A DNA stretch of 36,676 nt from Candidatus Altimarinota bacterium (GTDB lineage: Bacteria > Chloroflexota > Chloroflexia > Chloroflexales > Chloroflexaceae), in assembly GCA_012031775.1 (NCBI GenBank), contig JAAUTF010000001.1, forward strand, positions 1 through 36,676, written 5' to 3'. A program made the translations under genes and the position numbers. Positions within the stretch are counted from its first letter, which is position 1. Each line of letters begins with the position of its first letter. Below, one piece after another: positions 6,001 to 36,676 of this stretch. Under the pieces are notes generated by a model, which was not told the origin of the DNA, ran no database searches, and was given only the letters and a program-made list of their open reading frames with translations.

Positions 6001-9000
6001 TGGTCGGCCAATACCTATGTGAGCGGCGGCAGCTCCGCAACCTACAACGGCACCGGCGAGATCCGCAATACGCTTGAGGAAGATCTGTACAAGACCTTCC
6101 GCCAGGCCGGCACCAGCGGTACGAGCAACTTTAGCTACAATGTTCCGGTGGTCAACGGCCAGTATCGTGTCAAGCTGCACTTTATCGAGACGACGAAGAC
6201 GGCTGCCAACCAGCGCCGCTTTAACGTCAACATCGAGGGCGGTGCAAATGAATTGACCAACTTCGACATCTTCCAGGAGTCCGGCGGCCTGCTCTTTGCG
6301 CTGGTCAAGCCGTTCGATGTCACCGTTACCGATGGCACGCTCAATATCGTCTTCACCAACGCCAACAGAGATCGCGCCGTCGTCTCGGCCATCGAAGTCT
6401 TGCAGCTCACCGACAACGCTCGTCCTGTCGCTACGGCACCTGTCGACCGCACGGTCGATGTCGGCACGAGCCAAACCCTCGCCGGCAGCGCCAGCGATCC
6501 CGACGGCGATCTGCCGCTGACCTACGGCTGGCGTCAGACGGCTGGTACGCCGGTGACGCTCAACAACGCGACAAGCGCGAGCACAAGCTTTACCGCGCCG
6601 AGCACGCCGGGTGCGCTGACCTTCTCCTTCGTTGTTACCGATAGCCGTGGCCTGGCCAGCCTCGCCGATACGGTCGTGGTGACGGTGCGCGATCGCACGA
6701 TTACCGGCTTGAACGCCACCAGCAACAGCCCGACGCCGCTTGGGCGCACAACCTTCTTCACCGCGACGACGACAGCCGGCTCCAATGTCGTCTATACCTG
6801 GAACCTGGGCGATGGCACGACGAAGACCGGCGCGAATGTGAGCCACGTCTATGCCACCAGCGGTACGTTTAATGTGACCGTAACGGCGGCCAATGGGCGC
6901 AATAGCCTGACGACAAACCTGAGCGTCGTCGTCTCCAACGGTGGCCCAGTGGTCAACGCTGGCCCCGATCAGGAGGTCACGGCGCGCACGCCGGTTACGC
7001 TCAGCGGCAGCGCCAGCGACCCCGATACACCCTTGACGTACAGCTGGGCGCAGACAGGCGGGCCGAGTGTTTCGTTAAGCGGTGATAATACCGCAACTGC
7101 GACCTTCAACGCACCGAGTACGCCAACTGTGCTGACGTTCACGCTGACGGTGAGCGACAAGTTTAACGCCAGCAACAGCGATACCGTAGTGGTGCGTGTC
7201 GTCGATAGCTCGGTGAGCGGCCTCAGCGCCAACAGCAGCAGCCCGACGGTGCTGGGAGATACCACCTTCTTCACCGCGACAGCGAGCGGCAGCAACCTGA
7301 GCTACAGCTGGAACCTCGGCGATGGCACGCTCAAGAGCGGCGCGTCCGTCAGCCACAGCTACGCCGCTGAGGGCAGCTACACCGCGATCGTCACTGCCAC
7401 CAATTCGCGCGGCAGCGCTAGCCGCTCGCTGATTGTGCTCATCACCAATGCCGCACCCGTGGTCAATGCCGGTGCCGACCAGATCGCCTTTGTCGGTGAA
7501 AACGTTGCGCTGGCCGCCAGCGCGAGCGACCCAGATGGGCATACGCCGCTGAGCTACAGCTGGCAGCAAACAGGCGGGCCGACCGTAACCCTGATTGGGG
7601 ACAACACGCTCAGCCCGAGCTTCGACGCGCCGAGCACGCCGAGCGTGCTGACGTTCACGCTGACGGTGGCCGATAGTTTTGGGAAAGAAAGTAGCGATAC
7701 CGTAGTTGTGAGCGTGCGCGATGTGCCGGTGAGCGGCCTCAGCGCCAACAGCAGCAGCCCGACGGTGCTGGGAGGTACCACCTTCTTCACCGCGACGGCG
7801 AGCGGCAGCAACCTGAGCTACAGCTGGAACCTCGGCGATGGCACGCTCAAGAGCGGCGCGTCCGTCAGCCACAGCTATGCTGCCGAGGGCGTCTATACCG
7901 CCACCGTCACCGCGAGCAACGCTGGCAGCAACCAGAGCCGGTCGATCACGGTACTGGTGACCAACGTTGCGCCGAATGCCAGCGCCGGTGCCGACCGGAC
8001 GGTCTTTGTCAGCGACAATGTTGACCTTGCGGGCAGCGCGGGCGACCCGGATGGCCACTTGCCGCTGAGTTATAGCTGGCAGCAGACGGGTGGGCCAACC
8101 GTGAGCCTGAGTGCCGCCGACACGCTCACCCCCGGCTTTACTGCGCCAGGTACGCCGGTTGTGCTGGAGTTCACGCTTATCGTGACCGATAGCTTTGGCA
8201 AGGCTAGCAGCGATACGGTAAAGGTCACCGTGATCGATACCAATGTCGAAGGCGTCTTCGCTGGCAGCAGCAGCCCGACTGTGTTGGGCCAGCCAACTAG
8301 TTTTAGCGCGACGGCGAGCGGCAGCAACCTGAGCTACAGCTGGGACTTCGGCGATGGTACTACCGTGAATGGGGCCAACCTAAGCCATACCTATGCGGCA
8401 GCAGGCGTCTATACCGCTACCGTCACCGTGCGCAACAACGAAGGGGAGCGTAGCACCACAACAGTGGTGACGGTAACGAACGATACGCCAACCGTGAACG
8501 CCGGTGCCGACCAGGTGGTGGTGGTCGCCAGCACGGTTGTGCTCAACGGCACGGCCAGCGATGCCGATGGCCACCTGCCACTGAGCTATAACTGGCAGCA
8601 GACAGGTGGGCCGAGTGTGGTTCTGGCAGGGCTGATACGCCGGGGGCGACGTTCACCGCACCGCCCACCACCGCCGTCCTGACCTTCTCCCTTACTGTGA
8701 GCGATGCCTTCGGCGCGAACAGCAGCGACAGCGTAACCATTACTGTCGAGGAAGTGGCGATCAACGACCTTGTCGCCAGTAGCAGCAGCCCGACCGTGCT
8801 GGGCCAGTCAACCAGCTTTAGCGCGTCGGCAAGCGGCAGCAACCTGAGCTACAGCTGGAGCTTCGGCGACGGCGCCACGGCGAACGGGGCGAACGTGAGC
8901 CATAGCTATGCGGCGGCAGGTGTCTATACCGCTACCGTTACGGTGCGTAATAGCCAGGGTTCACGCAGTGTTGATGTGGTGGTGATGGTGACAAACGATG

Positions 9001-10370
9001 CGCCGACCGTGAATGCTGGTGCCGATCAGCTAGTGTCGGTCGCTGACACGGTGGTGCTCAATGGCACGGCTAGCGACGCCGACGGGCATATGCCTCTAAG
9101 TTATAGCTGGCAGCAGGCGGGCGGCCCCATCATTACACTTGTGGGCGCCGACACCGCCGCGCCGACTTTTGTTGCCCCTGCAACGGCCACCGTGTTGACA
9201 TTTACGCTGACAGTGACAGACGCCTTTGGCGCGTTGGGCAGCGATACCGTGGTTGTGACAGTTCGGGAAATCGGGAGCGGTGACCTGATTGCCAGTAGCA
9301 ACAGCCCGACGGTGTTAGGCCAGGCGACGAGTTTCAGCGCGATAACGAACGGCAGCAATGTGAGCTATAGCTGGAGCTTTGGCGATGGTGCCACTGGCGA
9401 GGGCGCAAATGTCAGCCATACCTACGCCGCTGAAGGCACCTATACCGCTACGGTGACGGTGCGGAACAGTGAGGGCACACACAGCGCCGCGCTGACGGTG
9501 CTCGTCACCAATCGTGCGCCACTGGCTGATGCAGGCGTAGACCGCAACGTACAGGCTGGCACCGAGGTGCTGTTGACCGGCCTGGGCAGCGACCCGGATG
9601 GCCACATGCCGCTGAACTATCGCTGGCGTCAGACAAGCGGAACCAACATCGAACTGAGCAACATCGGTGGCCCCGCCCTGCGCTTTATCGCACCGAGCGT
9701 GGCCGGTGTGCTGAGCTTCGAGTTGACCGTAAGCGATGCCTACGAGAAGAGCACCACCGATACGGTTCGGGTTATTGTGGAACAGGCTACGCCGGCCGGA
9801 AGCACGAAGATTTACCTCCCGATCGTGGGCAATCGTGCTGGCAAGCCGACCGAGCAGAAGGCGGCAGACCTTGTTGTGACGCGGTTTACGGTCAATCCGG
9901 CGCAGCCCCAGGCCGGTAAACCTGCTGAAGTGATCGTCGAAATCACCAACCAGGGTGAAACAGCAGCCGCACCGTTCTGGGTCGACTTTTATATCAACCC
10001 GAGCGCACCACCGACGCAGGCTGGCCAGATCTGGAACGAGCGCTGTACCCTGTCGCCCTGCTACGGCATCGCCTGGGCCGTAAGCCAAGGCCTGCAACCC
10101 GGCGAAAAGATCGTACTGCGCTCGACGCCCGATAGCTACGATGCAGGCTCGACGAATTGGCCGGGCTACTTCGCCAGCGGCACCCGCAGCCTCTATGTCT
10201 ATGTCGATAGCTGGAATGGCAGCGACCCGGCTGGCAATGTTGAGGAGAGCGACGAGACCAATAACCGCGCCGAGATCCTCGACCCTTGCCGTACTGGTGC
10301 GCTGCCTGCTGCACAGAGCAATCACGATGCTGTGCTGGAGTTGGCACCACGCCGCTCCTTAGGCCGCTAG
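2..10370 (+). CDS. Giant secreted multidomain protein (sugar-dehydrogenase propeller, malectin-like, PKD repeats, CARDB); 5' partial, four apparent frameshifts
   Basis: The reading frame is open from base 2, so the true start lies upstream of the window. The order of modules is: the end of a malectin-like domain (to about 235); an SbsA-type Ig-like domain (about 235-550); a glucose/sorbosone-dehydrogenase-like beta-propeller (about 590-1880); an ASH-type Ig domain; a DUF4114-like module ending FDFQDLVVIV (about 2240-2820); FN3 (about 2840-3110); a second ASH domain; a second DUF4114-like module (YDYQDNVYLV, near 4050); a lectin-like stretch; malectin-like 1 (about 4885-5380); a PKD pair; malectin-like 2 (about 5950-6400); tandem PKD pairs to 9790; then the motif KIYLPIV and a CARDB domain (about 9865-10290). 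Frame changes occur near 3845 (2 to 3), 4130 (3 to 2), 4667 (2 to 1) and 8627 (1 to 3). Sequence similarity continues across each one. It is probably a cell-surface or matrix protein that binds glycans. Whether the propeller is an active PQQ enzyme is not visible. Confidence 0.85.
5401..9790 (+). repeat. Tandem PKD/Ig-like pair repeats inside the giant secreted protein
   Basis: A module of about 172 residues (about 516 bp) occurs roughly 7.5 times. Each copy is an Ig-like half, with VNAGADQ, DPDGH.PLSYSWQQTGGP and VLTFTLTV.D motifs, followed by a PKD half, with SSSPTVLG, YSW.(L/F)GDG and SHSYAA.G.YTATVT motifs. Unit 1 (about 5401-5940) is separated from the rest by the second malectin-like domain. 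Units 2-7 run back to back from about 6415 to 9512, and a final Ig-like half ends near 9790. Bases 7212-7361 and 7728-7877 are nearly identical, with two differences seen in 150 bases, which indicates recent duplication or gene conversion. Confidence 0.85.
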
Positions 10371-13715: not shown

Positions 13716-15207
13716 ATGAGTAACACGCGCACCACAATCGTCAAAAATGCCGGCGTGTTGGTGGCAACCCAGGTTGTCACCTGGGTGCTGACTCTCTTCC
13801 TCACGATCTTTTTACCGCGCTATCTTGGCCCTGAGGCGATGGGTTCGCTTGGTATCTCCTGGGCGATCTGGGCGATTGTGACAGTGCTGGCGAAGTTCGG
13901 CATGAACGTGCTGCTCTTCAAAGAAGTAGCCCGCGACCACGAACGCGCCCCTGATCTGTTGGGTGCCTCGCTGGTTTTACGCGTGCTGTTTTTTATCGTC
14001 GGTTATGGTCTGGTTTTAACCTATCTTCAGTTCGTGGATTACTCACCGCTCACTGTCTCTGTGGTGATGGTGATGGGGTTCTACCACCTTTCGATCCTGC
14101 TCTACGAAGGCTATCAGTTTAGCTTGCAGGGCATGGAAAAGATGCAGTATGTTTCGTTGGCTAGTATCGGCGGTAAGGTCATAAACACCGTCGTCGGCAT
14201 CAGTGTACTGCTGCTCGGCTATGGCATCTTCGCCATTACCAGCGTTTATATCGCCTCCGGCGTGGTGACACTGCTGCTGATGGCGTTATTTTTTGCACCA
14301 GTTCTACCGCCCGCGTCTGACCTTCAACGTAGCCAAGCTCTGGAGTACAGTTAAAGCCAGCTTGCCCTATCTTTTCTCTGGCTTTGCACTTGTGCTCTAC
14401 ACCGAAGTCGACGTTGTGGTGATCTCGTTGTTGGTCGACGAGCAGACCGTCGGTTGGTATGGTGCCGCCGACCGGCTTTTTGGCACAACGCTCTTCCTGC
14501 CGGTGGCGATTATGGCCTCGCTCTTCCCAACGCTGACGCGTACGCACAAACAAGCGCCGGAAGAACTGCCGCCGATGTTCCGGCGCGCCTTCGACATTAT
14601 GTTGCTTTTCGCCGTGCCGATCGGCCTCGGCATGATCGTGATCGCCGAGCCGCTGGTAGCACTGCTCTACGGGCCGGCCTTTGCACCCACCGCGCCGGTG
14701 CTCGCGATCAACGGTTTGGTCATTATCTTCACCTACATCACGATCCTGATCGGCCAGTATCTTGTGTCCACCGATCGTCAGCGTACCTGGGGTACGGTGA
14801 TCTTGCTGATGACTGCGCTCACCATTCCGCTCGACCTAATGTTGATACCCTGGGGCGTGCAGAATTTTAACAACGGTGCTATCGGCGGCGCGATGAGTTT
14901 TGTTGTGACCGAGTTGATTATGCTGACGATCGGCTTCCGTATGCTGCCCAAGGGTGCCCTTGGCTGGTCGACGCTGCGTAGTGCCGCGCTGATCGGCCTG
15001 GCAGGGCTTGGTATGGCCGCAGTGGCCTGGTATTTGCGCCCCTATTTTATCGCTGTTCCCATTCTTGCTGGTGCTATTACCTACATTAGCTTGGTGCTGC
15101 TACTACGTGTTATCCCACGCGCCGATCTCGATCTGATCTTGGGTATGGGGCGCCAGGCTGTAAACAAAGTACGCCGCAAAGTTTCGCGCTCGCCCAGCGC
15201 AATCTAG
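13716..15207 (+). CDS. Wzx-type polysaccharide flippase (MATE/PST superfamily); one apparent frameshift
   Basis: The product would be about 497 residues with many hydrophobic helices. It begins with the typical amphipathic start (KNAGVLVATQVVTWVLTLFL) and an early LPRYLGPEAMG motif characteristic of O-antigen/teichoic-acid exporters. It would move lipid-linked repeat units across the membrane. The first frame ends at 14354 and the second half continues from about 14293 in the next frame (YRPRLTFNVAKLW...). The shift coincides with the six-T run at 14287-14292, and removing one T joins the halves cleanly, so an indel artefact is likely. The gene lies 51 bases after the Wzz-like gene and just before the CpsD-like gene. 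Confidence 0.87.
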
Positions 15208-23235: not shown

Positions 23236-24001
23236 GTGTTGCGCACCTTTCCGCTGATTCTGATAGCGTTGACCCTTGTTGCATGTGGTACAAGCGAAGC
23301 GCCGCTTGCAGCACAAGCGCCGCCCACGCCAACCGTCAGCGCGTTGTTCAACGCCGTGCCAACCAGCACGCCGCTACCGGTGGCCTCGACATCGACCAGC
23401 GTTCCCGAGCCGGTTGTGATCGAGCGCGCCCCGGTCGCCGAGGTGATCGGCGAAATCGTGATCTACGATGACGCCTTGGCCGCCGATTGGTCGCTCGACG
23501 AGAGCTGGAGCACAACGCTCGCACTCGACGATGAGGCTACCGTCTTCGCTGGCGCTGAGGCGATCGCGGTTACGCCACAACGCGAAACGTGGGGCGATCT
23601 TTTTTACACTAGCGGAGGACGCCGACGCGCCAATACGCCGCGAAGATGTGTTGGGGCTCAGCTTTCGGATCAATGGCGGGGCCGATTACATCGGCAACGA
23701 CGAACTGGCGGTGAGCGTGATCGGCAGCAATGCAGTGCCCTATTTCACCCGCGACAAGACGACAGCCCAGGAGCGCGCCGATGCCGACCTGGAGTTCTCC
23801 GAAACGCGGCTCTATTTTCTCGATATTAACACCGATATTCCGCCCGACACATGGGTCGAGGTGGTTGTCTGGCTCGACAACCTGATATTCGACCCCGACT
23901 ACAAATATGTTACGGGGTTCTATATCAAAAATGCGCCGAGCTTCCTTAATACGTATTACATCGACGAAGTCAAGCTGCTGGTTCAACAATCGCTCGAATA
24001 A
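23236..24001 (+). CDS. Lipoprotein with possible carbohydrate-binding domain; one apparent frameshift
   Basis: GTG at 23236 begins MLRTFPLILIALTLVAC, a textbook lipoprotein signal with the lipobox cysteine, followed by a Pro/Thr/Ser/Val-rich linker of about 60 residues. The remaining 150 residues form a beta-rich domain (WGDLF, LGLSFRINGG, LAVSVIGSN, VEVVVWLDNL, YYIDEVKLL) resembling galactose-binding or CBM-like jelly rolls. I do not recognise a named family. The frame changes at the six-T run near 23600-23605, and one extra T explains it. The start is open to doubt: ATG at 23154 has a better ribosome binding site (GGAG at 23142-23145) but is in another frame. A 7-bp hairpin (23200-23217) lies just upstream. 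It may anchor the polymer at the surface. Confidence 0.65.
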
Positions 24002-24148: not shown

Positions 24149-24889
24149 ATGGAACTCAGCAGCCCATCCCGACAAAACGATCCACGTGCCGACCGAATGC
24201 TGAACATCTTCGCGAGCCGTCGTTTTCGCAGCGTTCGCGCTAACCGGCGGCTGCAGATGACACTTCTACTGTGGGTGATCCGCAACAAGATTCTCGGCTC
24301 ACTCAAGCGAGCGCTCGACCTGAGCGTGGCGATTGTGGCCCTGATTATCGCCTCGCCGGTGATGGTGATGACCGCCATCGCGATTAAACTTGACTCGCCT
24401 GGCCCGATTTTCTTCCGCCAGACGCGTGTAGGCAAGTGGGGCGAACATTTTGGCTGCTATAAGTTCCGGTCGATGTACATCGACGCTGAAGAGCGTATCC
24501 GTGAGCTAGCGAAACATAACGAGGCGGACGGGCCGGTCTTCAAGATGAAAAACGACCCGCGTATCACCCGTGTAGGGCGCATCATTCGTAAGCTCAGCAT
24601 CGATGAGTTGCCGCAATTCTTCAATGTACTCAAAGGCGAGATGAGTGTCGTCGGCCCACGTCCGGCGCTACCCCGCGAAGTTGCGTTGTACACCTACGAT
24701 CAGGTTCATCGCTTGAACGCCATCCCCGGTATTACTGGCCTGCAGCAAGTGTCAGGGCGCAGCGATATCGATTTCAAGCGTTGGGTCGAGCTTGATCTGC
24801 AGTACATCGCCGAGCAGAGTGTCTGGAAAGACATTGAAATTCTGCTAAAGACCATCCCGGCAGTGCTTTTCAGCAAGGGCGCGTACTAA
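24149..24889 (+). CDS. Initiating sugar-phosphate transferase (polyprenyl-phosphate glycosyl-1-phosphate transferase)
   Basis: This is a short, 246-residue monotopic enzyme of the bacterial sugar transferase family (WcaJ/EpsL/PglC core). One membrane segment lies at about residues 57-80, followed by the family signatures IFFRQTRVGK, KFRSM at 105-109, the catalytic Asp-Glu pair in IDELPQFFN at 152-153, MSVVGPRP at about 165-172, and PGITGLQQVSGR. All key residues are present. It transfers a sugar-1-phosphate from a UDP-sugar to undecaprenyl phosphate, the first step of repeat-unit synthesis. AGAGGAAG precedes the ATG. The intact active site contrasts with the degenerate copy at 26619-28319. 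Confidence 0.93.
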   Translation: MELSSPSRQNDPRADRMLNIFASRRFRSVRANRRLQMTLLLWVIRNKILGSLKRALDLSVAIVALIIASPVMVMTAIAIKLDSPGPIFFRQTRVGKWGEHFGCYKFRSMYIDAEERIRELAKHNEADGPVFKMKNDPRITRVGRIIRKLSIDELPQFFNVLKGEMSVVGPRPALPREVALYTYDQVHRLNAIPGITGLQQVSGRSDIDFKRWVELDLQYIAEQSVWKDIEILLKTIPAVLFSKGAY

Positions 24890-25041: not shown

Positions 25042-26533
25042 ATGCGTAAGCTGTTGATAATCCTGGGTGTGCCGATCGACGATCTGACAATGGATCAGGC
25101 GCTTGAGCGCATCGACGACTTTGTTCAAACTGGGCGCTCGACCGGCAAGACGCATCAGGTGGCGACGATTAACGCAGATTTTGTCGTCAATTCACTGCAC
25201 GATCCAGAGCTCCAGCGGATCTTACAAGAGTCGGATATGGCTACGGCAGACGGGATGCCGCTGGTGTGGGGGGCGCGCCTATTGGGCGTGCCGCTCGAAG
25301 ACCGTGTCACGGCGCGGATCTGGTACCGGCATTGGCCAAGCGGGCAGCCGAGCGTGGGCATGCGCTCTTTTTGCTCGCGCGCGCCCCGGCGTGGCCGCGC
25401 AGGCAGCCGAGGTATTGATGGAGCGCCATCCGGAGTTGAAGATCGCCGGTGTACTCTCGCCGCCACAGAGCTCGGTGCTGGAGATGGATCCGTCGATCGT
25501 CGAGACAGTGCGGGCAGCGCGCCCCGATATCCTGCTGGTTGCGTTCGGCAACCCGAAGCAAGAAAAATTTATTAATATGTACGCCCGTGAGCTGCAAGTG
25601 CCGGTGATGATCGGCGTGGGCGGTACCTTCGATATGATCGCGGGTGTGACGCGGCGCGCACCGCAGTGGATGCAGAAATCTGGTCTGGAATGGGTGTATC
25701 GGCTAGCCCAGGAGCCACAGCGCCTCTGGAAGCGCTATGTTCACGATATGCTCTACTTCGGCTCGTTCTTTGTGCGCCAGTGGTGGGAGATGCGTAAAGG
25801 CCATACTATTGCGCCGGTGCTGCCGGCCGGCGAGGCGGTGCTCGTCGAGAACAGCGTTGTGCTGAACCTGCGCGGTCGGCTTGATGTCACCAATCGTGAG
25901 GCCTTTGTTGCACGCGCTGAAGCGGCGTTGAACGAGAACCCCAACCTGGTGATCAGCCTTGATGGCTGCGAGTTCCTCGATAGTTCGGCGCTGGGGGCGC
26001 TGGTGGTGCTGGCGAACAAAGCGCGTTCGGGCGGTGGGGCGCTGACGCTTGTTGCCGTGCCGCCGCCGATCATGCAGATCCTAAATGTGACGCGCCTCGA
26101 TCGCTTCTTTAACATCGAAGAGGATGTCGATGCGGGGCTGCACGCGCGCCATAATAGCACCCCTGTCGTCGAGCCGACACGTGATAAATCTGGGTGGCAA
26201 GTCATCAAGATGCCGCGACTGCTGGATGCTGGCAATGCCCCCGACCTGATCGCTACCTGTGAGCAGTTGCTGGTTCGCCAGCCGCGCTTGGTGCTCGACT
26301 TTAGCGAGACGCACTTCCTGTCGAGCGCTGGTCTGGCCGCCATGATGCGCCTTGACCGCCAGGCACGCGAGCTTGCGGGCGGCCTACGCATTGCGGCTTG
26401 TTCGCGCGATGTATTGCGCAGCATCCAACTGGTGAAGCTTGATACGCTTATACCAGTTTTTAACGATGTTCAGCAGGCTACCGGTAACGTCACCCCCACG
26501 CTCGAAGTTCGTCAGGTAGGAAGCCAGATATAA
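25042..26533 (+). CDS. WecG/TagA-type glycosyltransferase fused to two STAS domains; two apparent frameshifts
   Basis: The reconstructed protein of about 497 residues begins with a WecG/TagA/CpsF (GT26) domain (about residues 1-245): INADFVV, TADGMPLVWGARLLG, VTGADLVPALAKRAAERG, FGNPKQEKFIN, GVGGTFDMIAG and SGLEWVYRLAQEPQRLWKRY. GT26 enzymes add the second sugar to the lipid carrier. After a linker come STAS domain 1 (about 266-365, with FLDSSALGAL carrying the phosphorylatable Ser) and STAS domain 2 (about 383-482, with FLSSAGLAAM, where the usual Asp is Ser). Frames change near 25308 and near 25375; adding one base at each restores VTGADL and LFLLGARPG. GGCGGAG precedes the ATG. The STAS domains suggest that its activity, location or partners are set by the HATPase kinase and PP2C phosphatase encoded at 28851-31082. 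Confidence 0.85.
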
Positions 26534-26618: not shown

Positions 26619-28319
26619 ATGCAGATCCTACTCCTTGCAACCGACGAGCAAACTGCACCTGAGCCGCTTAGCGACACCTTTGCGGCACCGATGGTGCCTG
26701 TAGTCAACCGCCCGGTGATGGCGACGGCGATCGAAGTTCTGGCACGCGCAGGCCACAAAAAGATCATGGTTGCGCTGTGGCGTCGTGGTGGCAGCGTGGC
26801 AGCGTATTTCGGTAGCGGCCAGCGCTGGGGTGTGCAGCTCGAATATGTGACTCTGCGCGAGGCGCTTGGGAGCGCAGGAGCGCTCAAGTGGGCGGGCAAC
26901 CTGATCAGCGAGACGACGCTGGTGCTGCCTGCCTCGACGGTGCTCGATCTTGATATCGAGGCAGCCCTCGCCTTTCATCGGGCACACGGCGGCCCGCTCA
27001 CGCTGATCGCCCACGCATCGCGCGGCGATGTCCCACATCTTCCGCTCGAAGTCAACGAGCACGGTTTGCTCGAGTCGAAAGCCGATGACGCTTCGTGCCT
27101 GAGTTATACCGGCGCGTATATCGCTGAACCGGCAGTGCTCGACCTTATTCCGGCACGTCGGGCGACCGATCTCTACGCCGACATGGTACCGGCGCTGTTG
27201 CGCCAGGAAAGCGCCGTTCACGTCTATCTCTGCACAAGCTATTGGAACCCGCTGGTTAGCCTCGACGCCTATCAGGAAGCGCAGGAAGTTTTTCTGTACA
27301 GCGCCTACAATGCGGGGCGCGGCGACCAGCCCGAGCTGCGTGTGGATCTGCCGCAGGTACGCTATCCCTCGATCGAGGGGCGGCAGATCGCGCCCGGCAT
27401 CTGGGTTGGCCACGATCCGCTGATCCACCCGGCAGCGCGGCTGGCGGCACCGGTGGTGATCGGCAATAATAGCTGGATCGGGCGCGATGTAGAGCTTGGG
27501 CGCGGTGTGGTGCTCGGCCCGAATGTGATTGTAGACGATGAAGCGACTGTCAGCGAGAGCACGGTGCTGGCTAGCAGCTATGTTGGCCAGCTCGTCAACG
27601 TCCATCGCCGCGTTGTAAACCAGGCCGCTATGGGCGACCCAGCCACCGGCGAAACCATCCGGGTGACCGATCCGTTTTTGCTTTCGCGGGCGACGCCGCA
27701 CTTCGAGCAGAACGGCAGCCGACTTAAACGAACGCTCAGTTCCTTTGTCGCGGTTGTTGTTTTGCTGGTGCTCTCACCGCTGTTACTGCTGATAGCACTG
27801 TTGAGCCTGATCCTCAACGGGCGCATCTTCGAGCCTGCCGAGCGCATAAGCTACCGCCGCACCGGGCCCGATCAGCCGGTTGAGGCGCAGCCATTTCGGC
27901 TCTGGCGCTTCGCTACCAGCCGTCGCGATGGCACATCTACGGCGTATGGCCGAGTACTACGGCGTATGGAATTCGAGCGCTGGCCCGAGCTCCTCAATAT
28001 TCTTGGCGGCGATCTAGCCCTTGTCGGCGTCAAACCGCTCACTATTGCTGAAGATGCCACACTGCTTGAGGAATGGCAACAGCGCCGCCGCGAGGCACCA
28101 GTCGGCTTTACTGGCCTGTGGTATACGCAGTGCCCTCCCGACGCCGACCTTGACAACATCCTGGTTGCCGATGCCTACTACGCGGCCACCCGCAACTGGC
28201 GCGAGGATCTTCGGTTGTGCTTGAAGACGCCACTGTCGTGGTTACGCCGCCGCCGCGCACGGAGCGCAGCGCAATCCTCGTCCACAGACTATATGCTTTC
28301 TGAAGAATCGATCGCATAA
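26619..28319 (+). CDS. Three-part fusion: nucleotidyltransferase-like, left-handed beta-helix and sugar-transferase-like domains, both catalytic ends degenerate
   Basis: Residues about 1-225 follow the sugar-nucleotide pyrophosphorylase fold (MVPVVNRPVM, WAGNLISETTLVLPAS, YTGAYIAEPAVLDLIP). However, the signature GxGTRLxPxT...PK loop is absent, and the usual GD metal site reads PAST. Residues about 260-335 are hexapeptide turns (APVVIGNNSWIGRDVELGRG). A membrane helix lies at about 376-398, and residues 400-545 resemble a bacterial sugar transferase. There the catalytic DELPQ reads ERWPE (E453-R454), GPRP reads GVKP, and KFRSM is missing. The frame is intact over 566 residues, so it is a maintained gene rather than decay. 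It is probably a membrane scaffold or regulator of the initiating step. A divergent enzyme using other residues is the alternative. Confidence 0.8.
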   Translation: MQILLLATDEQTAPEPLSDTFAAPMVPVVNRPVMATAIEVLARAGHKKIMVALWRRGGSVAAYFGSGQRWGVQLEYVTLREALGSAGALKWAGNLISETTLVLPASTVLDLDIEAALAFHRAHGGPLTLIAHASRGDVPHLPLEVNEHGLLESKADDASCLSYTGAYIAEPAVLDLIPARRATDLYADMVPALLRQESAVHVYLCTSYWNPLVSLDAYQEAQEVFLYSAYNAGRGDQPELRVDLPQVRYPSIEGRQIAPGIWVGHDPLIHPAARLAAPVVIGNNSWIGRDVELGRGVVLGPNVIVDDEATVSESTVLASSYVGQLVNVHRRVVNQAAMGDPATGETIRVTDPFLLSRATPHFEQNGSRLKRTLSSFVAVVVLLVLSPLLLLIALLSLILNGRIFEPAERISYRRTGPDQPVEAQPFRLWRFATSRRDGTSTAYGRVLRRMEFERWPELLNILGGDLALVGVKPLTIAEDATLLEEWQQRRREAPVGFTGLWYTQCPPDADLDNILVADAYYAATRNWREDLRLCLKTPLSWLRRRRARSAAQSSSTDYMLSEESIA

Positions 28320-28388: not shown

Positions 28389-28480
28389 TAAACTACTTTA
28401 CAAACCTGTTGCGGCAATCTACAATCCGAAATCTGTAATCGATTATGATGTAAGGTGCCCGCTTGTTCAGGAGCGACGAA

Positions 28481-28819
28481 ATGGAAATGCAATCTCGCGT
28501 AGTTGGAGATGTGGAAGTGCTCGCGATCAAAGGTCGTTTCGATAATACAACAGCACCTGCGGTCGCCGAGTGGCTGGAAAAAAATATTGGGCATCCTCGT
28601 ATCCGTATGGTCGTAAACCTCTCGGGCACCAACTTTGTGGACTCGACAGCGCTGGCTACGCTCGTACAAGGCTTGAAGCGCTGCCGCCAGCAGAGCGGCG
28701 ATCTGCATTTGTGCAGTATGGAGCGCCCGGTTTATATGATTTTTGAGTTGACGCGCCTCGACAAAGCTTTCAACATTTTCGTCGATGAGGCCCACGCTAT
28801 TCAGGCGTTTGCAAGTTAA
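28481..28819 (+). CDS. STAS-domain anti-sigma-factor antagonist (SpoIIAA/RsbV type)
   Basis: This 112-residue single STAS domain has the order VEVLAIKGRFDN, MVVNLSGTNFVDSTALATL with the conserved phosphorylation-site Ser (about S55) after Asp, and RPVYMIFELTRLDKAFNIF at the end. In this family the unphosphorylated form binds a HATPase kinase and releases that kinase's other partner; a PP2C phosphatase resets it. Both partners follow immediately. CAGGAG at 28468-28473 fixes the ATG at 28481. It resembles the STAS domains of the WecG fusion, which share a TRLDRFFNI / TRLDKAFNI ending. Confidence 0.92.
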   Translation: MEMQSRVVGDVEVLAIKGRFDNTTAPAVAEWLEKNIGHPRIRMVVNLSGTNFVDSTALATLVQGLKRCRQQSGDLHLCSMERPVYMIFELTRLDKAFNIFVDEAHAIQAFAS

Positions 28820-28850
28820 ATGCGGTGTAATAGAGGGGAGCGAACGAGGC

Positions 28851-30581
28851 GTGAGTGTCAGACATTTGGCATCACTACGCAGCATAGGTGGCTCGCACCG
28901 GCAGCCGCGACAGCTAAAGAGCAACGCTCTTCTGGCGCGCGCACGGGTTGTGCGGCCCTTTAAGATGACGGTGTTGTCAGAATCAGTGCAATTCCATTCA
29001 CCTTCGCTCGCTTACGAGACGCAGCCGCCTGTTCAGAATGTAGAGCGCATGTTAAGTGTCGTTGTAAGCAGTCATCACAACCAGCTCACCGCGATCGCCG
29101 ACGTTTGGCTGTCAGAAGGCGCAAGCTCGTTCAGCATCTGGCAGCGCGGTCAGCTTTTGCGCTCGTGGCCTGCGGTGCCGGGCGATACCCGTGAGGTAAT
29201 GCTCACGGTGCCGATCTGCATCGACGAAAACATCGTTGGTGAATTACGCGTCAGCGGCACCAACGGCAGCAAGCAGGCAGCGCGCCTCGCCGCCGATGCC
29301 GACCTCGTCGCCGCGCTAGTTAAGCTCGAAGACGAACTTACCCTGATGACGGCTGAACTGGTCAATAGCCAGGATCAACAGGTGGCGCTCTACCGCCTGA
29401 CACGCTCGATGAGCGGGATGGTGTCGGTCGAGGAGACGCTGAACTCTTTGCTCTGCGAGGCGATACGTCTTTCTCATGCAAGCGGCGGCTACGTTGTGTT
29501 TATGCCGGCAAGCGGCGCGCCACTGGTGCTGCACCGCCCCGAGGTAATGCTCAGCGAGGCGAATATCTGGCAGTGCTTCTGGCAGGCGCAGATGGACGAG
29601 CAAGAGATCATCGTTACGCCAACCGATCGGAGCGGCACCCGGCTTGCGCTGGCGGAAGTGCCGAATATGCTGTTTATTCCGCTACGCACCCGCGGCGTGG
29701 TGAATGTTGGTCTCGGCTTGCTTAAGCCAGTACACGAGAGCTTTTCCAACCCCGACATTAAGCTCATGCGCGCTATTTGCGACCACGCCAGCGCTCAGGT
29801 AGAGAAGGCGCTGCTCTACCAGGAGAGCTTTGAGCAGGCACGGATGCGCACCGAGATGGAACTTGCGCGGCGTGTCCAGCTCGATCTGTTGCCGCGGCAT
29901 CTGCCGCTTGTGCCCGGCCTCGACATCTATGCCCATACACGACCGGCAATGCACGTCGGCGGCGACTTCTACGATTTTATTCAGCACGCCCGACGCCCGT
30001 TCTTCTTTACCGTCGGCGATGTCACGGGTAAGGGGCTGTCTGCTGCGCTTTTGATGACCATGACGCGCACCGCCATCCATAGCAAAGCGAGCTTTATGCC
30101 CGACCCGACGCCGGAGACGGTGATGCGCCAGTCGAACGCCGACCTCTACGATGACTTTACGCAAGTGGGGGTTTTTGCAACCGCGTTTATCGGCCAGTAT
30201 CTTGCTGCAGAACGGCGTATCCGTTATGCTAACGCGGGCCATTCGCCGGTGATCTATCGGCCCCGCGAAGGCCCGGCGACTATGTTGCGGGCGGATAGCA
30301 CCGCGATCGGTGTTCTGCCTGCAAGTTCGAGTCGCAATTATACGCTGCGTATCACCGAGGGCGATCTCTTGATTGTCGCTACCGACGGCTTCAGCGATGC
30401 TCGCGACCATAACAATGAACGTTTCGACTACGATCGCCTGCTGGCGCTTACCGAGGAAGTGGCACAGCGCTCTGCGCGTGAAATTGTCGACGCCATCTAC
30501 GAGGCTGTAGATACTTACGGCTCGGGACGCCCCCAGGACGACGACCAGACGATTCTGGTTATCAAAGGAGCAAGCTTGTGA
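28851..30581 (+). CDS. GAF-PP2C (SpoIIE/RsbU-type) serine phosphatase
   Basis: The protein is about 576 residues from GTG 28851, chosen for AGGGGAG at 28834-28840; the frame opens earlier and ATG at 28965 is an alternative. A divergent sensor-like region is followed by a GAF domain (about residues 180-325), a short coiled-coil linker (EQARMRTEMELARRVQ) and a PP2C phosphatase domain. The latter has metal-binding GGDFYDF (about 369), GDVTGKGLSAALLM, NAGHSPVIY, ATDGFSDARD and QDDDQTILVI, so all metal-site acids are present. It would dephosphorylate STAS proteins in response to a GAF-sensed or other input. Its end overlaps the next GTG (GTGA), implying coupled translation with the kinase. Confidence 0.92.
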   Translation: MSVRHLASLRSIGGSHRQPRQLKSNALLARARVVRPFKMTVLSESVQFHSPSLAYETQPPVQNVERMLSVVVSSHHNQLTAIADVWLSEGASSFSIWQRGQLLRSWPAVPGDTREVMLTVPICIDENIVGELRVSGTNGSKQAARLAADADLVAALVKLEDELTLMTAELVNSQDQQVALYRLTRSMSGMVSVEETLNSLLCEAIRLSHASGGYVVFMPASGAPLVLHRPEVMLSEANIWQCFWQAQMDEQEIIVTPTDRSGTRLALAEVPNMLFIPLRTRGVVNVGLGLLKPVHESFSNPDIKLMRAICDHASAQVEKALLYQESFEQARMRTEMELARRVQLDLLPRHLPLVPGLDIYAHTRPAMHVGGDFYDFIQHARRPFFFTVGDVTGKGLSAALLMTMTRTAIHSKASFMPDPTPETVMRQSNADLYDDFTQVGVFATAFIGQYLAAERRIRYANAGHSPVIYRPREGPATMLRADSTAIGVLPASSSRNYTLRITEGDLLIVATDGFSDARDHNNERFDYDRLLALTEEVAQRSAREIVDAIYEAVDTYGSGRPQDDDQTILVIKGASL

Positions 30582-31082
30582 TAGCGCAGTCTCTTTCCCT
30601 GCCTGCAATGACGCCAGTGACTGCACGCCATGCACGGCGAAGGAACAGCCTCATGTCAACGTGGGATGCAGATGTGATCCGTCTCGAACTGCCGGCGACG
30701 TACTACTACCTCTCATTAGTGAGTACCACACTCGCCGAAATGTTGAAGCGGCTCGACAGCAGCGGTGGCGACTGGGACACATTGCTGTACAATGTACAGC
30801 TTGCCACGCACGAAGTCTGCACAAATATTGTCGACCATGCCTACAACGAGCGCACCGATGGGCGCATTGTGCTGACGCTGACGCTCGATCGCGAGCCGGC
30901 ACGGATCACCATGACCTTTCGATACCGGTATTTCGTTCGATGTAGCGAAGGTCGCCGCTCCGAATCTTGATGAGGCCCAGGAGCAAGGGTATGGCTTGTT
31001 CCTGATCTACAACCTGATGGATAGTGTGAACTATTCCCCCTCTAGCGGCGGGAACCACTGGACTTTGGTGAAATACCTCTAA
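30578..31082 (+). CDS. HATPase serine kinase / anti-sigma factor (RsbW/SpoIIAB type); one apparent frameshift
   Basis: The GTG at 30578 overlaps the phosphatase stop and has an excellent AAAGGAG (30564-30570). An internal ATG at 30653 with AAGGAA fits the usual family N-terminus and may be used instead. The N-box THEVCTNIVDHAY carries the catalytic Glu and the Mg-binding Asn. The first frame stops at 30970, but removing one T from CCTTTCG near 30918 continues it into DTGISFD (G1 box) and GYGLFLIYNLMDSVNY (G2 box), ending at 31082. The reconstructed domain is complete. It would phosphorylate STAS serines and sequester a partner. No sigma-factor gene lies in the window, so its output may be the STAS-fused glycosyltransferase. 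Confidence 0.85.
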
Positions 31083-31093
31083 GGCGGAGAATT

Positions 31094-31495
31094 ATGGCGA
31101 ACATTCTGGTTGTTGACGATTATTCACCAAGCCATCGGCTGGTGAGTTTTATCCTCCAGCAGTATAATCATCACGTGGTGAGCGCCTTTAATGGCGTGCA
31201 GGCGCTGGAACGACTCGCCGAAATCGATGTCGATCTCGTGCTGACCGACCTGGCAATGCCGAAGATGGACGGTATCGGCCTTTTGCAGGAGATGCGTGTC
31301 AGCGAGCGCCTGCGCCAGATTCCGGTCATTATGTTGACGGCGAGCGGCCAGCGTCAGGAGCGCGCCCGCGCCGAAGCGGCTGGCATCGAGATGTTCTTGA
31401 CCAAGCCGATCGAGTCCGAGGAACTGGTGATGGCGGTGGAGCAGGCGCTGGCTAGTCGTGCTGTTGCCCGGCTTTTCTGCAAATCGGCGGCGTAA
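31094..31495 (+). CDS. Single-domain response regulator (CheY-like receiver)
   Basis: This 133-residue receiver domain has no output domain. The phosphorylation pocket is complete: D8-D9 in VVDDY, D52 in LTDLAMPKMDG, T82 in MLTAS and K104 in LTKPI. A GGCGGAG motif precedes the ATG, 11 bases after the kinase stop, so it is very likely part of the STAS/PP2C/HATPase operon. No histidine kinase is encoded nearby. It probably relays a phosphate signal to the phosphatase or kinase by protein contact. Confidence 0.93.
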   Translation: MANILVVDDYSPSHRLVSFILQQYNHHVVSAFNGVQALERLAEIDVDLVLTDLAMPKMDGIGLLQEMRVSERLRQIPVIMLTASGQRQERARAEAAGIEMFLTKPIESEELVMAVEQALASRAVARLFCKSAA

Positions 31496-31574
31496 GTAGT
31501 AGACCGGTTACAGTGAAGGCGCGAGCACAAGTGTTGTGCGGCCCCACGCTGTATTGCGACCAAAAAGGCATGCA

Positions 31575-32495
31575 ATGCAGGCAGATTTTGTGAGTGTCGT
31601 GATCTGCACACGCAATCGCGGCGATGAAATTGTTTTGGCGCTCAAAACGTTGTTGGTGAACGAGTACCCGGCCTTTGAAGTGATCGTGGTTGATCAGAGC
31701 AGCGACGACCGCACCGCACAAGCAGTAGCCCCCTTTCGCAACGACGCACGCCTCCGGTATCTTAGCACTTCTTCCCGTGGTTCGAATACTGGGCGCCAGC
31801 TCGCCTGCGATATCGCGCGGGGCGAGTTCATCCTTATCACCGACGACGATTGCGAAGTGCCACGCGACTGGATCGCGACAATGGCTGGGCAACTGCAGGC
31901 CGACGTAGCGCTTGCCTGCGTGTTCTGCGAGGTGGTCGCGGCTCCGTTCGACGCGAGCAAAGGCTTTGTACCCGTGACGGGTGCGCTGGTCGAGACGACG
32001 ATCTGCGATCTTTATGCCTGGTGTACCAGCGGTGCTGGGCGCGTGATGGCCGCTGGTTTGGGTTTGCGGCGCTCGCTGCTACAGGAAATCGGCGGCTTCG
32101 ACGTTGTGATGGGGGCGAGCGAGCGCTTTCGCAGCACAGCTGATGCCGATCTCCCGCTGCGCGCCTTAGTCCACGGCTACCGCGTACAGCTTACGCAGCG
32201 TACCAGGGTTGTGCATCACGGTTTTCGTAGCTACGAACAGGGGCGCAAGCTGATGCGCGGCTACTTGATGGGCCTGGGCGCGGTGTACGCCAAGCTCATC
32301 CGCTGTGGTCACTGGCAACTGCTGCTGGTGGCTGGTTTCGAGCTCTGGCGCACTGTGATCGGGCCGCTGATAAGTAACCTCATCCGCCTGCGTCGCCCGC
32401 CTGTGCTCGGGCGCGCGCTCGGTTTTAGCCGCGGTTTTGCGCTGGGCCTACAAACACCGATCGACCACGCGCGCGAGGTCTTTCTGCCTAACTGA
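31575..32495 (+). CDS. Family 2 glycosyltransferase
   Basis: This 306-residue protein contains VSVVICTRNRGDE, VIVVDQSSDDRT, the metal-binding ITDDDCEVPRDW at about residues 88-99, and a GGFD motif near 173. The usual catalytic Glu-Asp of the acceptor motif reads TADADLPLR, so the Glu is replaced by Ala while one Asp is kept. The hydrophobic C-terminus suggests membrane association. It is similar to the 20581-21588 enzyme (shared DQS.DD and DDDC.V..DW motifs), implying gene duplication. ATG 31575 with AAGG a few bases upstream is preferred over the upstream GTG at 31536. Confidence 0.85.
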   Translation: MQADFVSVVICTRNRGDEIVLALKTLLVNEYPAFEVIVVDQSSDDRTAQAVAPFRNDARLRYLSTSSRGSNTGRQLACDIARGEFILITDDDCEVPRDWIATMAGQLQADVALACVFCEVVAAPFDASKGFVPVTGALVETTICDLYAWCTSGAGRVMAAGLGLRRSLLQEIGGFDVVMGASERFRSTADADLPLRALVHGYRVQLTQRTRVVHHGFRSYEQGRKLMRGYLMGLGAVYAKLIRCGHWQLLLVAGFELWRTVIGPLISNLIRLRRPPVLGRALGFSRGFALGLQTPIDHAREVFLPN

Positions 32496-33670: not shown

Positions 33671-34051
33671 GGTTGATCGAGCAAGAAAAAAGACCTGTTT
33701 TCACCTCTAAGTACTATAGCAAGCCCCAATGAGTTGTACATGAAATGTCTACTGGGTGGCGCTGTAGCTGCTACCTCGCAGACATCCTTGTTCACAAACC
33801 CGTTAGGACTGCTATAGCAAGCCTCAATGAGTTGTCCATGAGCTGTGTGCTTGTCGGCGGCGTAGCTGCCACCTTGCAGACATCCTTGTTCACAGACCCG
33901 CTAGAGCTGCTATAGCAAGCCTCAATGAGTTGTCTATGAGCTGGGTGTTTACTGGCGGCTATGCCGTTACTAAACACCCGATCTGCTCACAAACTCGTTT
34001 GGGTTGCTCTATACGGTGCAGTATTCGCAGCTTAGGGAAGTGAGAACAGGT
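33671..34051. repeat. Intergenic region with three 98-bp tandem repeats, each with a hairpin-forming middle
   Basis: Units begin with CTATAGCAAGCC at 33714, 33812 and 33910, exactly 98 bases apart; the third decays near 34007. Positions 1-30 (with CAATGAGTTGT) are nearly identical in all three units, and positions 71-98 are well conserved in the first two. Positions 31-70 differ between units but remain self-complementary: GGTGGC/GCTACC in unit 1, GGCGGC/GCTGCC in unit 2, and GGGTGTTTA/TAAACACCC in unit 3. The unit ends include the palindrome GCTATAGC. No protein frame is convincing here. The array could be a repeat-family element, a binding array or a structured RNA. A possible ribosome binding site for the next gene is AGGGAAG at 34034-34040. 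Confidence 0.75.
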
Positions 34052-36676
34052 ATGGCATCACGGCACGGAACGTTGCGCGTGATCATTGTCGGTGTGCTGC
34101 TTAGCGTAATGGCCCTGACGGCTTTAGTACGACCGTTAACTACCGATGCTGCACTGGTTTTTTCACCGGAAGCGCCCGGTTTCACCCAAGAACTAGTGGT
34201 CGGCGGGCTGCCCTATGCGACGACGCTCGACTGGGCTCCGGATGGGCGCATGTTCGTAGGTCTGAAGTCGGGCATCGTGCGGGTGGTTGAGAACGGTAGC
34301 TTGCGGGCGACACCGTTCGTCGACATCAGTGCGCTCGTAAACGATAATCACGATCGCGGCATGCTCGATATCGCTGTCCATCCTGATTTCCCCACCACGC
34401 CCTATGTGTATCTGCTCTATACCCACGATCCGCCCGGAGCGCCCAATAACGGCAACCACGGTCGCGTCGCGCAACTGATGCGTGTGGCTGCTGACCCGGC
34501 GCAGGATTATAATGTTGCGCTTGCAGACAATGTGCCAGATCCATTGGGCAACCCCGATGCGCGGGTTATCTTGTTGGGAACGAATAGCACCTATGCCAAT
34601 ATCGGCAATATAACCAACGGGCGCGATATCACAAAAGCCTCCTGTATGGAAGGGCTCGATCCGAACGGGGCACCGATCGAGGATTGTATCCCGGCGGACG
34701 AGAACTCGCATACGATCGGGACAGTAGCGTTTGCGCCCGATGGCTCGCTCTTCATTAGCAATGGCGATGGCTCGAATTATACCGGCGTCGATCCGCGGGC
34801 GCTGCGCTCGCAGAACCTCGACAGTCTGGCTGGCAAGATGCTGCGCATCGACCCGCTCAGCGGCCTGGCGCTGGCGGGGAACCCCTTCTTCGACCACCTC
34901 GGCGACAACCCCGACGCCCAGTTGTCCGACGATCCGACCAGCAACCGCGCAAAGGTCTGGGCTTATGGCCTACGCAACCCCTTCCGCGTAGCCATTCACC
35001 CGCTGAGCGGGGAGCCGTACATCGGCGACGTGGGTTGGAGCAAATGGGAGGAGATCAACCTCGGCAAGGGCGCAAACTTCGGCTGGCCCTGTTACGAAGG
35101 CGCGATGGTGCGCAATCAGGGCAACGAGGGTGGCAATACGATCAGCACACGCCAGGCGAGCTACGAGACGGGCTCGACAACCAGTGCGGCCTGCCAACAG
35201 CTCTACAACCAGGGTCTGGGTGTTGTGCAGCGGCCGCTGTTCACCTACAGCCATACGAACGATGGCTACGGCAGCGGCGGCGGCGCCTCGGCGAACGCTG
35301 GTGCCTTCTATCAGGGCACGGCATATCCATCGTCGTACCGCAACGCCTTGTTCATCCTCGACTACAACCGCAAGTGGATTCGCTACCTGACCTTTGATGA
35401 TCTTGGCAATGCGACGGTGCGCAACTTCGCCAAAGAGAATGTGAGCGGTGGCCCGGTGCAGGTGCTGACCGGCCCCGATACGAACCTCTATGTGGTGATG
35501 TACAACGGCAATGGTAGCGAGGTGCGTCGTATTCGTTACACAGCGGGCGGCAACACCCCGCCGACTGCGGTTGTAAACGCTTCGCCGACGATCGGCGTAG
35601 CCCCGTTTGCAGTGCAATTCGACAGTATCGGCAGCTTCGACCCAGATGCCCAGCCGCTGAACTATAGTTGGGACTTTGGCGATGGTACATCATCGACAGA
35701 GGCTAACCCCAGCCATAGCTACACCGCATCCGGCGTGTACGATGCGGTCTTGACGCTTACGGAGGCGAGCGAGCCCTTTGCCAGCGGGAGCGCAACGGTG
35801 CGCATCACGGTGGGCAACAACCCGCCGCTGGCGACGATCAACAGCCCGCTTGATGGTTCAAGCTACCGCGTTGGCGATACGATTGTCTACTCCGGCAGCG
35901 GTAGCGCTGGCGGCATTCCTATCGATCCGAGCCAGCTCTCGTGGGAACTGCGCCTGCATCATAATGAGCACAATCACTACAATAGTATGGGTAGCGGTAG
36001 CGGCGGCACTTTCGAGGCCGACGATCACGGCGACAGCACCTATTATGAGATCTGCCTGACGGTAAACGCACCCGGCGATGTTCAAGATACGCGCTGTGTA
36101 GCGACATACCCGCAGAAGACGGCGATCACGCTCGCTTCTGTGCCGGTCGGTATGGAGATCATTTACCAGGATGAAGGTTATGAGGTGCTGGCACCGGGGG
36201 TGATCAACCCGATCGTCGGCTCAACCCAGACGATCGCAGCGCCCTCTATTCAGCGCAGCCACACCTTTGTCGGCTGGTCTGACGGCCTCGCGAATGCCGA
36301 GCGCAGCTTTGTTGTTGGTGAAACGGCCGAGAGCTATACGGCGATCTACGAGAACCGTGCGCCACTGCCACAGTTGAGCACGAGTGGCACGACAAACGGC
36401 TATGGCCCACTCACTGTGAACTTCGACGCTGCCGGATCGAGCGACCCCGAGGGCGATACCTTAAGTTACCTCTGGGACTTCGGCGATGGCACGACCGAGA
36501 CGGTGAGCACGCCACAGCACAGCTTTACCGCCCGGCGAACCTGACGAGGTCGCGCTTGACGGTGAGCGACCAGGCAGGCGGCAGCGCCAGCCAGAGCGTT
36601 TTTGTAACCGTTGCTACACCTGAGCCCACCAACACGGCGACGGCGAGCAATACGCCCACCAACACACCTACCAACA
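34052..36676 (+). CDS. Secreted sugar-dehydrogenase-like protein with PKD domains; 3' partial, one apparent frameshift
   Basis: ATG 34052 starts a signal peptide (basic MASRHGTLR, then VIIVGVLLSVMALTALV). Residues about 45-500 form a glucose/sorbosone dehydrogenase (GSDH) beta-propeller: LDWAPDGRMFVG, RGMLDIAVHPDF, HTIGTVAFAPDGSLF, WAYGLRNPFRVAIHP and GDVGWSKWEEIN. A PKD domain (YSWDFGDGTS) follows, then a segment with the His-rich LRLHHNEHNHYN, a further beta domain and a second PKD (YLWDFGDGTT). The frame shifts by one near 36530 and continues as LTVSDQAGGSASQSVFVTV into a Thr/Pro/Asn repeat linker that runs off the window. Family members oxidise sugars with PQQ outside the cytoplasm; activity here is unproven. 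It is related in its propeller to the giant protein at 2-10370. Confidence 0.87.

Follow-up and report, generated by a model that had tools for sequence, protein, structure and literature searches.

Partner switches whose output is an enzyme have been described in the SiaABC-SiaD and BgrUVW-BgrR systems (PMC7647112). These systems, of Pseudomonas aeruginosa and Sinorhizobium meliloti respectively, combine a PP2C phosphatase, a HATPase kinase and a phosphorylatable antagonist, and their reported output is a diguanylate cyclase activity, not a sigma factor, with biofilm or polysaccharide being controlled (PMC7647112; PMC8457831). Here we describe a cassette built from the same kinds of protein within a polysaccharide operon of a Chloroflexaceae metagenome-assembled genome (MAG), contained in a window of 36,676 nucleotides that comprises the whole stretch of DNA analysed (contig C272 of that MAG). 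One difference is that the antagonist of the two described systems is a protein of its own, acting on a cyclic-di-GMP enzyme, whereas here the STAS domains belong to the same chain as a glycan-assembling glycosyltransferase, which the same operon encodes.

SypA/SypE of Vibrio fischeri and HmpUVW of Nostoc punctiforme likewise belong to partner switches that are connected with polysaccharide or motility and have no known sigma target; they differ in that no STAS-glycosyltransferase fusion is described for those loci and in that their direct target is unknown (PMC8256260; PMC6495340). Unlike with these sigma-free switches linked to biofilm or polysaccharide (SypA, HmpV), the present genome itself points to a candidate target, the enzyme to which STAS is fused. 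The RsbU-RsbV-RsbW and SpoIIE-SpoIIAA-SpoIIAB systems of Bacillus employ the same three protein families, whose catalytic and phospho-acceptor motifs are conserved here, but the SigB/F-type sigma gene on which they rely in Bacillus was not found in the genomes searched (0/41 in the family, 0/11 outside it). Concerning the enzyme, Anabaena all4160, needed for the heterocyst envelope polysaccharide, is also a STAS-glycosyltransferase fusion (PMC8256260; PMC4390870), with an N-terminal STAS instead of the C-terminal ones found here. TagA/TarA, the wall teichoic acid glycosyltransferase of family GT26, shares the fold and residues of the catalytic domain, but it has no STAS and stops after a C-terminal appendage, the point from which the STAS domains of the present protein extend. 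Among open-licence papers none was found that describes WecG/TagA fused to STAS together with a partner switch. By analogy with the diguanylate cyclase switches (PMC7647112) a glycosyltransferase output is the most likely one.

We consider it probable that the locus encodes a sigma-independent partner switch that controls how active the polysaccharide machine is or how it is assembled, most likely through the STAS domains fused to the WecG/TagA-type glycosyltransferase. This reading is based on features seen in the sequence: the gene order, the domains, active-site motifs that are intact in relatives, the lack of a SigB/F-type sigma among the genomes searched and the linkage of kinase and enzyme. 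The genes concerned are the following.

24149-24889, + strand: bacterial sugar transferase, which opens the conserved operon (initiating undecaprenyl-phosphate sugar transferase; Pfam Bac_transf, 230 bits)
25042-26533, + strand: WecG/TagA/CpsF glycosyltransferase with two C-terminal STAS domains (Pfam WecG, 152 bits, and two STAS stretches; intact orthologues; predicted structure)
26619-28319, + strand: nucleotidyltransferase-hexapeptide-sugar transferase fusion (Pfam NTP_transferase, Hexapep and Bac_transf)
28481-28819, + strand: free single-domain STAS protein with a conserved D-S-T/S phospho-acceptor motif (Pfam STAS, 60 bits; alignment)
29049-30581, + strand: phosphatase with GAF, coiled-coil and PP2C (SpoIIE-type) parts (Pfam SpoIIE, 144 bits; start common to relatives)
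30578-31082, + strand: RsbW/SpoIIAB-type HATPase_c_2 serine kinase, frameshifted near 30918 (two HATPase_c_2 pieces)
31094-31495, + strand: orphan single-domain response-regulator receiver (Pfam Response_reg, 92 bits)

An earlier note on this DNA, made from the sequence alone, had placed STAS, GAF-PP2C, HATPase and receiver genes at 28481-31495, in a polysaccharide locus and downstream of a STAS-fused glycosyltransferase; Pfam matches bear out both the cassette and the fusion, the WecG gene that ends at 26533. The tight packing claimed for the four genes holds for the GTGA overlap between PP2C stop and kinase start (30578-30581) and for the 11-base gap between kinase and receiver (31083-31093), but not for the first two genes: the phosphatase open reading frame as listed opens at 28785, the start common to relatives is the ATG at 29049, and therefore some 230 bp separate STAS from PP2C. 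As for the GAF-PP2C assignment, the PP2C part stands, while GAF falls under the Pfam cut-off in the window protein, yet GAF models hit 6 out of 11 homologues (E<=0.01), and the predicted structure has an alpha/beta domain at this place.

The source MAG amounts to 5.85 Mb in 780 contigs and is 71% complete; its host family was taken as Chloroflexaceae, the named matches being labelled Chloroflexaceae or Chloroflexales. Close orthologues of the phosphatase occur in most of 41 family genomes, and the order sugar transferase, WecG.STAS.STAS, NTP-/sugar transferase, STAS, PP2C, kinase, receiver is found again in about 30 genomes, the NTP-/sugar transferase gene standing between fusion and cassette in most relatives. 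The cassette is linked to biosynthesis genes in 23 of the 32 Chloroflexia genomes that bear it (the window, G001, G003-G009, G011, G012, G014, G015, G017, G023, G025, G029, G030, G032-G034, G062 and G070), although the WecG-STAS gene is located elsewhere in G014 and G015. In three others (G010, G016, G031) a contig end leaves the linkage uncertain, and six carry an unlinked cassette (G013, G024, G026, G027 and, in split form, G039 and G040). A second family carries the operon order as well (G070, L138), and it is found in another seven MAGs bearing the label Anaerolineae or Chloroflexota (L153, L155-L160). Between families and outside the class, the order persists at a protein identity of about 50%. 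This recurrence exceeds chance, and the random association that would have spoken against the earlier note is not seen. Among 158 genomes of the class, 26 contain both fusion and cassette, 5 the cassette only, 2 the fusion only and 125 neither (Fisher p ~1e-22, uncorrected for shared ancestry, G005 and G002 being possible contig-edge cases in this tally).

Genus g18 (G039, G040) shows which part of the cassette stays with the enzyme when the locus is split. One contig carries sugar transferase, WecG.STAS.STAS, NTP-transferase and, directly after them, the orthologous kinase, while free STAS, PP2C and receiver lie on another. Both kinases are recognized by the cassette-kinase profile (211 and 230 bits, with two tandem paralogues at no more than 56); in the split loci the kinase follows the STAS-fused enzyme.

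The SpoIIE-type PP2C domain presents the GGDF, GDV/TGKG, TDG and DDDQT motifs, the key metal-binding Asp being invariant in 11 homologues, and in the predicted structure coiled coils flank an alpha/beta domain ahead of PP2C; the best fold match of this model in the PDB is SiaA, and RssB, RsbU and SpoIIE are matched too. The N, G1 and G2 boxes of the kinase are intact in relatives, the window copy being frameshifted between the N and G1 boxes. The free STAS has a D-S/T motif in every complete orthologue, and the receiver keeps its DD, D, T/S and K residues in nearly all of them. Three hallmarks of Rsb/Spo-type partner switches are thus found (PP2C metal Asp, HATPase_c_2 boxes and STAS phospho-Ser), while the cognate SigB/SigF-type sigma is missing from the genomes searched.

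Concerning the fused enzyme, its catalytic part aligns with TagA (7mpk), and T42, D70, R221 and R228 are invariant in 16 orthologues, which carry both the GT26 catalytic Thr and Asp and the arginines of the C-terminal appendage. T42, D70 and R228 are the equivalents of TagA Thr37, Asp65 and Arg221, for which catalytic roles have been reported (PMC6493773). In the same 16 orthologues Asp323-Ser324 of STAS1 is invariant (16/16) and Ser439 of STAS2 nearly so; in the predicted structure (mean predicted local distance difference test score 73) each Ser opens helix alpha-2 of its own domain, the position of the phospho-site in SpoIIAA and RsbV. By both sequence and fold, solved SpoIIAA and RsbV match the fused STAS and TagA matches the catalytic domain; the solved STAS chains that are matched are mostly SpoIIAA, RsbV and other single-domain antagonists. 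In a tree with the free STAS types, fused STAS1 and fused STAS2 form old separate clades, neither being recently copied from either free STAS. TagA is reported to pass from an inactive dimer to an active membrane monomer once its C-terminal appendage folds (PMC6493773). The STAS domains start just beyond a TagA-type appendage, and by this analogy their position is a plausible control point.

No SigB/F/G-type sigma scores above the TIGR02980 cut-off in the 41 family genomes or in 11 genomes of outside loci. One of 14 control genomes passes this cut-off, presumably that of B. subtilis, a known carrier of SigB, SigF and SigG. A cyanobacterial-type SigF can score under the cut-off, so region 1.2 was also examined; the five region-3 sigmas that C. 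aurantiacus has all carry it, as do nearly all others examined, and are therefore RpoD-like. In C. aurantiacus no region-3 sigma gene lies near the cassette or any HATPase_c_2 gene, and the window contig has no Sigma70 r2 or r3 match, in agreement with the earlier note, which had seen no sigma gene in the window and asked for a search further out. It should be noted that the missing SigB/F target applies to every RsbW-like kinase in the family and is not specific to the cassette, and that ECF (extracytoplasmic function) or RpoD-like sigmas are possible kinase targets.

We infer a mechanism in which the HATPase kinase would have STAS clients of two sorts, one a free protein and the other fused to the glycosyltransferase. 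As long as the phosphatase is off, the free STAS would be phosphorylated and the kinase free to bind and/or phosphorylate the fused STAS, keeping the glycosyltransferase inactive, possibly through an enforced dimer that masks the active site as in TagA. The GAF/coiled-coil PP2C, on sensing a signal, would dephosphorylate the free STAS, perhaps the fused STAS too; the dephosphorylated free STAS would then capture the kinase and release the glycosyltransferase. We slightly prefer this sign of control, in which the enzyme is on when free, over the opposite one. The receiver would provide a separate, phosphorylation-dependent input. That it may be a second input, as had been proposed earlier, is consistent with its conserved phospho-acceptor residues and with a hybrid histidine kinase found after the receiver in the other cassette type, where STAS, PP2C and kinase are followed by a second STAS and then the receiver, compared with a single free STAS in the linked type. 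This histidine kinase is present in 3/3 loci of the unlinked type checked (L082, L231, L232), which suggests where the partner of the orphan receiver was lost. A derivation of the fused STAS domains from the second free STAS of this type was considered and rejected, as fused STAS1, fused STAS2 and that STAS are distinct clades.

Several observations weigh against the glycosyltransferase as output. Four genomes (G013, G024, G026, G027) have the cassette with neither a WecG-STAS at the search threshold nor an adjoining polysaccharide operon, and therefore the cassette either has a different target in them or has been left over as a remnant; it may have other targets besides the fused enzyme. In g5 the fusion sits elsewhere in the genome, the second fused STAS in Chloroflexota has no Asp before its Ser and may be non-phosphorylated, just 4 of 47 fusion loci outside Chloroflexota show a kinase in the fetched stretch, and the free STAS could be the output itself, as proposed for SypA and HmpV. 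Taken further, this last idea makes the free STAS an effector acting on some assembly-protein partner, with the WecG STAS domains as scaffold or oligomerisation modules that are not kinase clients. The free STAS is indeed the most regularly retained part, present even without WecG-STAS, the fused domains are old clades of their own, and SypA and HmpV have been proposed as outputs with unknown targets (PMC8256260). However, Ser324 of fused STAS1 is invariant, as expected of a regulated site, and in g18 it is the kinase and not the free STAS that is linked to the fusion, which makes this alternative quite unlikely in our view.

A more canonical-like arrangement, in which the kinase sequesters a non-SigB sigma (RpoD-like group 2 or ECF) encoded elsewhere and the polysaccharide genes are merely the regulated ones, has candidates at hand, with about 22 Sigma70_r2 genes in the MAG and the five RpoD-like sigmas of C. 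aurantiacus, and a precedent in Chlamydia RsbW, which acts on the primary sigma according to a title in the reference list of PMC8256260. We still regard it as unlikely, since the window contig has no sigma gene, the region-3 sigma genes of C. aurantiacus are distant from cassette and HATPase_c_2 genes alike, none of the 52 genomes has a SigB/F/G-type sigma, and a transcriptional output leaves both the glycosyltransferase-fused STAS and the kinase-enzyme linkage in g18 unexplained. Mere hitch-hiking, i.e. a general stress module co-inherited with the operon and functionally unrelated to it, would account for the cassette standing alone in four genomes and for the related STAS-PP2C-kinase-STAS-receiver-hybrid kinase type away from polysaccharide genes, but it is very improbable given an order kept at such divergence across families and beyond the class, the co-occurrence of fusion and cassette and a related arrangement in Verrucomicrobia. 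An output on enzyme activity or assembly and not on transcription, as the earlier note had it, is therefore supported by the conserved order, the sigma searches and the kinase that keeps with the STAS-fused enzyme where the locus splits.

WecG-STAS fusions are also present in Verrucomicrobiota, Armatimonadota, Acidobacteriota and Luteimonas. An RsbW-like kinase lies within the fetched stretch in 4/47 of these fusion loci, versus 0/19 WecG loci without detected STAS. In the verrucomicrobial locus L180, WecG.STAS.STAS, with D-S-T in both fused STAS domains, adjoins genes for a STAS, a receiver and a kinase fused to a phosphatase, and in L225 a hybrid histidine kinase and a receiver stand upstream of the fusion. 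We tentatively propose, with somewhat less than even confidence, that WecG/TagA enzymes with C-terminal STAS (in Chloroflexota, Verrucomicrobiota, Armatimonadota, Acidobacteriota and a Luteimonas) might be widespread direct clients of RsbW-type kinases, a glycan enzyme being controlled with neither sigma nor second messenger. As side observations, HATPase_c_2 kinase and SpoIIE phosphatase are on one chain near WecG.STAS.STAS genes in L173, L180 and L188 (Verrucomicrobia), and Luteimonas panaciterrae L193:8713-11148 encodes an 812-aa protein in which WecG is joined to two STAS domains.

Two of the window genes are broken in this assembly. The kinase frame breaks at about 30918, with the N part at 30578-30917 and the G1/G2 part at 30918-31079 in another frame, and the WecG-STAS gene switches frame twice, near 25311 and 25380. 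The kinase is intact in all relatives by alignment, relatives show intact fusions as well, and because RpoD-like genes of the same MAG are likewise split, the simplest cause is probably sequence error. A real kinase pseudogene is not favoured, on the same grounds. Other split-looking genes of the window, at 13716-15207 and 23236-24001 (a flippase among them), are likely assembly or read errors. Elsewhere, the cassette PP2C is split across two frames in G013, which lacks the fusion (loci L080:9269-10835 and L235), through decay or sequence error.

Two further features adjoin the cassette.

28397-28425, + strand: putative sigma-70-like promoter upstream of the cassette (TTTACA-17-TACAAT, 10/12 consensus matches; weak evidence)
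31536-32495, + strand: family-2 glycosyltransferase after the cassette (Pfam Glycos_transf_2)

The promoter is the one good site in a scan upstream of the free STAS, where the region as a whole barely exceeds shuffles. A family-2 glycosyltransferase gene lies downstream of the receiver in Chloroflexus too.

A second conserved kinase locus, in which no sigma gene was seen, is found in C. aurantiacus (L129, 3.202-3.206 Mb) and in the window's own MAG (L132, contig C338). It contains a WecG with no STAS, an acyl-CoA carboxylase carboxyltransferase, two tandem HATPase_c_2 kinases and a STAS, and by coordinates the carboxyltransferase and kinase pair adjoin in several other family genomes. Finally, the polysaccharide locus is flanked in the window (2-10370 and 34004-36544) by genes for large proteins; the domains that these carry are PKD, malectin, Big_5 and GSDH (glucose/sorbosone dehydrogenase-like), those of the 34004-36544 protein being assigned by reading alone.

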